Source of the DNA: an uncultured Bacteroidales bacterium
GTDB taxonomy: Bacteria; Bacteroidota; Bacteroidia; Bacteroidales; Bacteroidaceae
Assembly: GCA_902787575.1 (NCBI GenBank)
Contig: CADAGX010000024.1
Coordinates: forward strand, 1-37,102
Reading direction: 5' to 3'
DNA: 37,102 nt
Below are positions 35,360 to 37,102 of this stretch, one piece after another. The notes beneath the pieces are model-generated. The model made no database searches. It saw nothing but the letters and a program-made list of their open reading frames with translations, and had not been told where the DNA came from. The translations under genes were made by a program, and so were the position numbers. Position 1 is the first letter of the stretch; the number at the start of each line of letters is the position of its first letter.

Positions 35360-36763
35360 ATGACAAACGACACCATCTGCGCTCTTGCCACTTCTCCCGG
35401 CGGTGCCATCGCCGTAATTCGCCTTTCGGGTGAAACTACGTTCCAGACGTTGGAAAAGGTCTTCTCGAAGAAACTATCCGATGCACCTGCCAACACGCTA
35501 CACTACGGTCATATCATAGACGGCACAAATGCACAGGATGGAAAGGGCGAGATGGTGGACGATGTCATCGTGTCGGTCTTTCGCGCGCCACATAGTTATA
35601 CGGGCGAGGATGCAGCTGAAATCTCATGTCACGGAAGCCGTTACATTGTCCAGCGCATCTTGCAACTTCTTATACACCATGGCGCACGACAGGCACAGCC
35701 AGGTGAATTCACCCAGCGCGCTTTCTTGAATGGCAAAATGGACCTCTCGCAGGCCGAAGCAGTGGCCGACCTTATTGCCAGCACCAATGCCGCTACGCAT
35801 CGAATGGCCATAAGCCAGTTGCGAGGTGGCTTCAGCCGCGAACTCTCCCAACTGCGCGAGCAATTGCTCCAACTCACCGCCTTACTCGAACTCGAACTCG
35901 ACTTCTCAGACCAAGACGTGGAGTTTGCTGACCGCAAAAGGCTGCTGCTGTTGGCTGAGACCATAAGCAGCCATATACAAAAACTCACAGACTCATTTCA
36001 GACAGGCAACGCCTTAAAAAACGGCGTCCCAGTAGCAATCATCGGTGCTCCGAATGTAGGAAAGAGCACGCTTTTGAACACCCTTCTGCACGACGAGCGC
36101 GCCATTGTGAGCGACATACAAGGCACTACGCGCGACCTCGTGGAGGATGTGATACAGATAAAAGGAATAACGTTCCGATTCATCGACACAGCTGGCATAC
36201 GCCGCACTAAAGACCAAATAGAGAAACTGGGCATCGAACGCAGCCTGCAGGCAGCCGAACGTGCACAGATTATTATTCTGCTCACCGAGCCCAATGTGTC
36301 GTTTCCCGAGCTTCGGATAGACTCGAAGCCCATCATCCGAGTCATTAATAAGTGCGACCAGAATATGCCTAGCTCGTCTTTCCTCTACCACAAGCGCACG
36401 CCCGGGCAATACATCCATATTTCTGCCCTGAAGGGTGACGGAATTCAACTTCTAGAAGAGGCTCTTGTGCGCGAAGCCGCACTGCCCGAACTTTCGGACA
36501 CAGAGACAGTGGTCACAAACGTACGACACTATGAAGCGCTGATGAATGCACAATCCAACCTGCAGCGCGTCATTGCCTCCTTGAATGCTGGCAGTGGTAC
36601 ACCCATGGGCGCTGCAACAGCTTTCCAACCCGCCCCAACAATCGACCTAATTGCCGAAGACCTTCGACTAGTCCTCTCCGACTTAGCCGAAATAACTGGC
36701 GGCAAAATTACATCACAAGAGACCCTCAACGAAATCTTTTCCAGATTCTGCGTGGGAAAGTAG
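35360..36763 (+). CDS. mnmE: tRNA modification GTPase MnmE (TrmE)
   Basis: With MnmG adds the 5-carboxymethylaminomethyl group to wobble uridines. 467 residues. The N-terminal folate-binding domain begins TICALATSPGGAIAVIRLSG; the G domain has G1 GAPNVGKST (229-237), G3 DTAG (276-279) and G4 NKCD (330-333); the C-terminal signature FCVGK carries the conserved Cys464. ATG at 35360, 13 nt after serB; codons upstream overlap serB. The TAG stop is created at the junction of a perfect 19-bp tandem duplication (36743-36780). Removing one copy would give the same protein ending in TAA. Confidence 0.97.
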   Translation: MTNDTICALATSPGGAIAVIRLSGETTFQTLEKVFSKKLSDAPANTLHYGHIIDGTNAQDGKGEMVDDVIVSVFRAPHSYTGEDAAEISCHGSRYIVQRILQLLIHHGARQAQPGEFTQRAFLNGKMDLSQAEAVADLIASTNAATHRMAISQLRGGFSRELSQLREQLLQLTALLELELDFSDQDVEFADRKRLLLLAETISSHIQKLTDSFQTGNALKNGVPVAIIGAPNVGKSTLLNTLLHDERAIVSDIQGTTRDLVEDVIQIKGITFRFIDTAGIRRTKDQIEKLGIERSLQAAERAQIIILLTEPNVSFPELRIDSKPIIRVINKCDQNMPSSSFLYHKRTPGQYIHISALKGDGIQLLEEALVREAALPELSDTETVVTNVRHYEALMNAQSNLQRVIASLNAGSGTPMGAATAFQPAPTIDLIAEDLRLVLSDLAEITGGKITSQETLNEIFSRFCVGK

Positions 36764-36780
36764 ATTCTGCGTGGGAAAGT
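36743..36780 (+). repeat. Perfect 19-bp tandem duplication at the mnmE 3' end; candidate attachment site
   Basis: AGATTCTGCGTGGGAAAGT occurs at 36743-36761 and again directly at 36762-36780. The first copy encodes RFCVGK and the first base of the stop codon. The same gene end is the known attB of SGI1-type integrative elements in Gammaproteobacteria. Duplicated att cores are left by integration or by excision of one of two elements. Seen: repeat and position. Inferred: attachment role. Confidence 0.7.
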
Positions 36781-36809
36781 AAATCCCGATTAGCATCGAT
36801 TACAATCAA

Positions 36810-36956
36810 TCACAAAATATCACATAAGGCATTCATAATGAGCGCCTTTTCTTTTTGCCCACTTTTTAAGTAAAGTCGATAAAAATCGTTTTTGCTCGAT
36901 TTTTTGTACCGCTCCTGTATGGAAAAGCCATTTCCTATGAGAACTATTCTATTCAT
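36810..36956 (-). pseudogene. AbiH-like N-terminal fragment (48 codons)
   Basis: From the ATG at 36956 the frame reads MNRIVLIGNGFSIQERYK and later NDFYRLYLK, then meets a TGA at 36812-36810. MNRIVLIGNGF followed by a short helix and a xDF motif is the typical start of AbiH-family proteins (bacteriophage abortive infection), which normally have about 250-400 residues. The later codons run antisense through the mnmE terminator and do not look conserved. The ATG overlaps the stop of the preceding frame by 8 nt, as in a translationally coupled operon. I read it as a gene truncated at the island edge; a chance resemblance of eleven residues remains possible. Confidence 0.45.
36826..36856 (+). terminator. 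Intrinsic terminator downstream of mnmE
   Basis: AAGGC (36826-36830) and GCCTT (36844-36848) form the outer stem; TTCA/TGAG form an inner stem after one mismatch with a TAA loop. A T-run TTTCTTTTT follows to 36856. It would end the serS-mnmE transcript. Confidence 0.7.
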
Positions 36957-37102
36957 CTACAATACTTTCTAATGTTGTGACAAATGGAAGGTATCTGATT
37001 TCACCTCTACGCTGAGTCTTCATTATGTTTACATTTCCCAAATCTGCAGATTGTTGGGGATTGTAATCCAATAACAAATATTTTACAGCAGATTTCTCCA
37101 TA
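36949..37102 (-). CDS. Unidentified protein, C-terminal part (extends beyond window or begins at 37101)
   Basis: The minus strand is open from the window edge to a TAG at 36951-36949, with an ATG at 37101 giving 50 residues: MEKSAVKYLLLDYNPQQ near the start and RYLPFVTTLESIVDE at the end. The composition is protein-like and the region is AT-rich (about 34% GC by my count for 36781-37102), unlike the core genes. It overlaps by 8 nt with the AbiH-like start that follows. I do not recognise the family. Whether the ATG at 37101 is the true start cannot be seen because only one base precedes it. Confidence 0.55.
   Translation of the reverse strand, partial: MEKSAVKYLLLDYNPQQSADLGNVNIMKTQRRGEIRYLPFVTTLESIVDE

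Follow-up and report, generated by a model that had tools for sequence, protein, structure and literature searches.

Two perfect copies of a 19-nt sequence abut at the 3' end of mnmE in an uncultured Bacteroidales genome, and the locus raises the question of whether this gene end serves as an attachment site for mobile elements and, if so, where the second copy came from. The window, by which we mean the whole 37,102-nt stretch of DNA analyzed here, is one whole contig (C24) of an assembly with a completeness of 86.88%. As this contig ends 322 nt past the repeat, the right-hand side is unreadable, and the answer was therefore drawn from relatives. Our main reading, to which we assign a probability of roughly 0.87, is that the mnmE 3' end is the attB of several tyrosine-integrase element families in Bacteroidales; among them appear to be phage-like and mobilizable elements as well as segments that carry defence-type genes but no integrase.

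The mnmE repeat and the element end behind it

The window's mnmE, encoding the tRNA modification GTPase, was delineated from its open reading frame and Pfam matches (TrmE_N and MnmE_helical) at 35360..36763 on the plus strand, with its 3' end as the predicted attB. As the initial annotation had stated, AGATTCTGCGTGGGAAAGT occurs at 36743-36761 and again at 36762-36780, the copies abutting with 0 mismatches. These are the only matches with at most three mismatches in the window (mean of 0.01 in 100 shuffles), and a whole-assembly search recovered three further matches, with 3 mismatches each, in the rest of the assembly. The first copy (plus strand, located by sequence match) holds the native core TTCTGCGTGGGAAAG (36746-36760) and supplies the last codons FCVGK, its first AGA being an Arg codon of the window's own mnmE. 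The second (plus strand) holds another core at 36765-36779, identical over all 15 nt, and the TAGA spacer between the two cores (36761-36764) is the mnmE stop plus an A. Hence the MnmE C-terminus RFCVGK is kept intact and the TAG stop spans the junction of the two copies, just as first described. Among relatives, the recurring unit is the 15-nt core, with variants, plus the TAGA spacer. A tRNA gene was considered as the target of the site and rejected, as none was found in the window. A terminator supplied by the element was considered too and is not claimed, as a scan of the window found none; hairpin-like sequence was seen by eye in relatives.

From the second core onward, the window matches the left end of an integrase-bearing element of another genome, G136 (L119/L023), with 91.7% identity over 156 alignment columns (36765-36919, plus strand; BLAST). 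We designate this second core and its arm a 'type A' left end. Beyond 36919 the window diverges from G136 and a methyltransferase-like gene enters on the minus strand (36949..37102), its 3' end preserved up to the point where the contig cuts it. Its last 50 aa (36952-37101) match protein C-termini in six other genomes, and both of the two proteins examined among these are N6_N4_Mtase DNA methyltransferases, making the gene probable cargo. The window thus closes on a type A left end, belonging to an element or a remnant of one, with probable restriction-modification cargo. The initial annotation had suggested an excision scar or tandem arrays from adjacent copies with no element between; the site is not simply empty, as an element end adjoins copy 2, and the copies may represent an excision scar.

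The window's shared downstream group, type A, consists of G000, G121, G136, G073, and G007, with MnmE identities of 55-73% to the window's protein, and BLAST placed the same end on G096 and on contig C3 of G110. Where 2 kb or more of a type A end is available, G136 has an integrase and G007 lacks one, carrying a NERD-domain protein in the 4 kb searched; type A ends, therefore, need not lead to an integrase. Within the window's assembly, we found no near-perfect third core, and a search for the type A integrase returned one weak partial match (36%, residues 229-366) on another contig, which was rejected as the window's own integrase. Separately, in G073 (L191, 440-1057) the type A left end is followed by a 206-aa zinc-ribbon protein, which we take to resemble an insertion-sequence protein.

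Contig breaks, shared DNA, and integrases downstream of mnmE

An MnmE match was present in 138 of 139 same-genus genomes, most of them fragmented. Among the matches listed, our census covers 99 mnmE 3' ends from 98 genomes (G082 twice, the window's genome included), leaving out paralogues, matches stopping well before the C-terminus, and a few near-complete ones (G056, G092, and G109); the end in G098 was placed by hand. In four cases the sequence breaks off within the last codon or right at it; these were counted as contig ends, and all 95 readable ends encode (F/Y)C(V/I)GK. G082 carries two full-length mnmE-like genes (C12:5815-7182 and C46:77035-78318), which may mean contamination or a genuine second copy.

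Assemblies tend to break at repeated or strain-variable DNA. A contig end lies within 250 bp downstream of mnmE in 33 of 99 census ends, as against none of the 92 with a known upstream distance (Fisher 2e-11), and within 500 bp in 43 of 99 against 0 of 92 (2e-15), both p-values being indicative as the genomes are related. The genome_contigs set gave the same picture, with 18 and 25 of 78 loci broken within 250 and 500 bp downstream, respectively, against a single one upstream at either distance; these counts cover 78 of 80 loci, including four that break off within the last codons, and the set overlaps the genus census (L045, for instance, is apparently the contig of G088). Some contigs end within the core itself (e.g. 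L066, L082, and L099).

The DNA that follows is both variable and shared, in line with the variable sequence that the initial annotation had anticipated beyond the repeat. Comparing the first 60 bp after the stop in the 88 ends of at least that length, with tandem units removed beforehand, placed 46 of them in nine groups (four pairs and larger groups of 16, 8, 6, 5, and 3 members). The identity threshold for grouping was 0.68, and 20000 shuffles attained 0.53 at most. Plain chromosomal sequence may account for at least two pairs (G132/G125 and G084/G098).

Tyrosine integrase frames were detected downstream of mnmE in 12 genus genomes, all co-directional with it and beginning 163-2066 bp after its stop, using an HMM built from the integrases of five of these genomes. 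In Pfam, all five combine PF00589 with PF13102, and four add PF17293. Restricting the count to genus genomes with at least 2 kb downstream, 10 of 41 have a match and the other 31 show none to this HMM within 6 kb; at least some mnmE sites look empty (G132 and G125), and others may hold remnants. Upstream sequence was surveyed over 4 kb in the genome_contigs set, as the genus set had short upstream flanks: among 33 loci flanked on each side by 4 kb or more, an integrase lies within 4 kb downstream in 11 (10 on the mnmE strand) and upstream in none. Carriers include Bacteroides mediterraneensis, B. faecichinchillae, Parabacteroides, Massilibacteroides, and Prevotella sp. 885. The integrases fall into divergent groups, the most distant pairs sharing less than 30% identity (some sequences being partial), and several lineages therefore use one address. 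By Pfam, the integrase adjoining the left end has catalytic and SAM-like domains and usually an arm-binding domain, as seen in the five genus integrases, the B. mediterraneensis element L060, and the viral contig L298. A recombinase near the site, as sought by the initial annotation, is thus present in relatives as a co-directional tyrosine integrase and not in the window's assembly, where the contig ends before one could appear.

Six IMG/VR contigs also encode an MnmE relative, and four of them (L298, L299, L300, and L302) have an integrase 195-225 bp after it. Both contigs scanned of these four carry phage families: a tape measure protein and a helicase loader in L298, and a RecE-like exonuclease in L300. 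L297 lacks this integrase arrangement; its first gene is mnmE, next comes an open frame of 377 aa, and the genes beyond lie on the opposite strand, one of them for a tail-type protein. In the viral_contigs set, the tandem pattern had one match, in L296, where 38 nt identical to window positions 36745-36782 lie beyond an endolysin gene, away from mnmE. The right-arm pattern had 0 matches in this set; no attP was found in three human faecal virome records, and neither an excised circle nor an attP in the sequences searched. By eye, L293 has an mnmE-like end with a type B-like arm about 240 bp before its integrase.

Right ends, cargo, and known systems

The far ends of these elements are recognizable within the genus as TATTTGCAGAT, a short spacer, and a core, an arrangement found in 12 of 139 genomes and in none of the reversed control; in the right ends inspected, TGATTATCA or a near form stands before TATTTGCAGAT. 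One integrase-bearing element is complete on a single contig, in G051, where 6.4 kb hold, in order, an HTH protein, an integrase, AbiEi, AbiEii, a PD-(D/E)XK protein, an unknown protein, the right arm, and the core. No relaxase was matched among the six genes scanned. The last of these genes (L178:529-2094) encodes a protein of 522 aa whose start is signal-like and which matches no Pfam family.

Three shorter segments likewise end in an arm and a core but gave no integrase match to the HMM. That of G052 (5.4 kb) encodes Fic and a 774-aa SMC-like ATPase, which fell below the Pfam cut-off and matched PADLOC Ppl at 5e-16; that of G029 (5.3 kb) encodes AbiEi, AbiEii, an ATPase piece, and PAD_porph; and that of L110 (1.6 kb) encodes Fic. 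G052, G029, and L110 have cores at both ends, as does G051, and these three integrase-less segments show what characterizes a CIME, namely att sites kept and the integrase lost. The B. mediterraneensis element L060, with its relaxase (PF03432) and MobC (PF05713), qualifies as an IME. Ends are also stacked: a right end is followed by another left end in G053, G110, G138, and G147 (G053 and G138 by eye), the second left end in G110 being of type A. Similar 355-aa Fic proteins stand behind mnmE in three genomes (L129:14898-15962, L110:11595-12659, and L118:8210-9274), adjoining a right end in two of them.

A distal copy of the mnmE end was clear in two of eight isolates scanned and weak in a third. 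Parabacteroides PF5-9 repeats 16 identical nt at a distance of 11.2 kb and has an integrase at its left end; Marinifilum N1E240 has two such matches, one of 17 nt 7.2 kb from mnmE and one of 18 nt 7.6 kb from it, with no integrase match to the HMM in 10 kb. The match in the B. mediterraneensis isolate (G144) is an 11-nt run at 37 kb, and the other five (G147, G156, G154, G158, and G142) have no near-perfect distal core, although in G147 a further type A left end, 39 kb away from mnmE, adjoins a core. Most of the interval from mnmE to the distal core in Marinifilum sp. N1E240 is filled by a gene for a 1722-aa protein (L230:8337-13502), ATPase-like by eye (GYRGMGKTS) and matched by neither Pfam nor PADLOC. 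The further core copy looked for beyond the repeat therefore exists in relatives; the window's contig ends before one could appear.

From this arrangement we infer recombination at the core. The integrase would join a core of about 15-18 bp in mnmE (TTYTGYRTSGGAAAG plus the stop, with variants) to the core of a circular element. As the element would supply its own last codons, mnmE would be restored at the left end, and the old mnmE end would shift to the element's right end, which in the genus would place the old core behind the arm (TGATTATCA or close, then TATTTGCAGAT). On this reading, copy 1 in the window is the mnmE end, and copy 2 is another att core abutting the left end of an element, the rest of which the assembly lacks.

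In kind, these elements are known: an SGI1-like target, IMEs, CIMEs, and phage stacking; the tandem core is unusual. SGI1 is described (PMC3285670 and PMC8409611) as lying in the 3' end of trmE/mnmE, bounded by imperfect repeats of 18 bp, one of them the gene's last 18 bp, and as having a lambda-family integrase. The elements examined here likewise occupy the final bases of mnmE and preserve the gene end, and the proposal that elements of Bacteroidetes use SGI1's target is supported by the same gene end together with integrases and distal cores in relatives. Against the 18-bp repeats of SGI1 stand 18 nt in Marinifilum and 16 nt in Parabacteroides, with five of eight isolates negative and the window's contig ending too early. 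The likeness seen is one of target site; the phylum is another, the cores are tandem, and the genes found here encode HTH_17 proteins and PF17293-containing integrases, with DUF3987, DUF6371, a MobA-type relaxase, and MobC in the B. mediterraneensis element.

L060 resembles the class of Bacteroides NBU1, NBU2, and Tn4555 in combining a tyrosine integrase, a relaxase, and MobC in an integrated element. Its target, however, is a protein gene, whereas the gene targets of Bacteroidetes elements given in the available part of a review table are tRNA genes (PMC5704250). The same review, in the part available, describes CIMEs and accretion at shared att sites, which resemble our integrase-less segments between cores (G052, G029, and L110) and the end-to-end stacking; here, by comparison, several cores are themselves tandem and the gene content is defence-type (Fic, AbiE, and ATPases). 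The rAID clusters of Bacteroidales, as outlined in the available text of PMC12247911, also unite a tyrosine recombinase with defence genes and are defined by a recombinase upstream of at least two co-oriented, low-GC short genes. A search of titles and abstract openings, largely in papers outside subscription, found no published report of an mnmE/trmE attachment site in Bacteroidetes.

One conserved chromosomal address would join phage-like elements, mobilizable elements, and defence-type genes in a dominant gut and rumen group, which would help explain the frequent assembly breaks behind mnmE. Anchoring on the mnmE end makes it possible to extract such elements from many genomes and to compare and count them, and genetic tools for Bacteroidales may be landed at this site. 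The same gene end is used by SGI1 in Gammaproteobacteria and by several of the integrase groups described above, which raises the question of why the C-terminal codons of mnmE make such a good target.

The tandem core and competing accounts

That the breaks and shared downstream pieces merely reflect an assembly artefact or a conserved mnmE-linked repeat, with no mobile elements involved, we consider very improbable. The sequences do come mostly from fragmented assemblies, and many shared ends are short, but long contigs and isolates, too, have yielded integrases, cargo, right arms, and distal cores, and the shared ends fall in several unrelated groups with divergent integrases. The initial proposal of an island attachment site at this gene end thus gains support from the downstream breaks, integrases, and distal cores of relatives.

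The origin of the double core is a separate matter. Core-TAGA-core occurs in 25 of 139 genomes and in none of the reversed control, and directly at mnmE in 17 of 99 ends; half of the 12 right-arm genomes (6) also have it at the distal right end. Of the 17 tandems at mnmE, 15 pair unlike copies (in G100, G138, and G098 the first has ATCGG and the second GTGGG), so that the copies were probably carried by elements rather than made by local duplication. In addition, the mnmE stop is TAG in 16 of the 17 tandem genes against 21 of 78 others (p = 3e-7, indicative). Ordinary replication slippage, duplicating 19 bp at the gene end without any mobile element, was tested through these comparisons of copies and stop codons and came out as improbable, though less so than the artefact: it would have to account for a unit that recurs across the genus, for unlike copies, for the TAG bias, and for tandems at distal right ends and on a viral contig off mnmE. 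In its favour, both the window and G073 carry a pair of identical 15-nt cores, as recent slippage would give, and chromosomal-looking genes follow the tandem in G057 and G058; as the window's copies are identical, slippage there fits its own sequence too. Across the genus, the comparison favours a double core that would have arrived with elements.

If so, the tandem could be an excision footprint, whereby elements with a core-TAGA-core right end enter by one core and leave by the other, each such event leaving or removing one 19-bp unit; this we hold as a tentative possibility. Five of the six right ends with an arm and a tandem begin with an identical TTCTGCGTCGGAAAG-TAGA, the very first copy found at mnmE in G010, G012, G057, G105, and G123, and the G057 tandem precedes chromosomal-looking genes with no integrase match over 19.8 kb. 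Yet no before-and-after pair of one strain and no attP sequence was found, tandems also precede left ends of types A, B, and D, which would need further steps, and the unit is not fixed, the second core standing 20-21 nt on instead of 19 in G001, G011, and G036. A broader and rather doubtful alternative makes the mnmE end a shared cassette dock, on whose one core divergent phage and island integrases would act, integrase-less defence cassettes being moved in trans and the tandem 19-bp core being the working register. New cassettes would enter beside mnmE and each round would add or remove one core unit, somewhat as in integrons; candidate cassettes span 1.6-7.6 kb and consist of Fic alone, AbiE with others, the SMC-like ATPase with Fic, or the 1722-aa ATPase-like gene. 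Our preferred reading remains an attB used by several element families, with the extra core probably travelling with them. In the three genomes with the wider spacing (L247, L260, and L128, respectively), the spacer reads TAACA or TGAACA, not TAGA.
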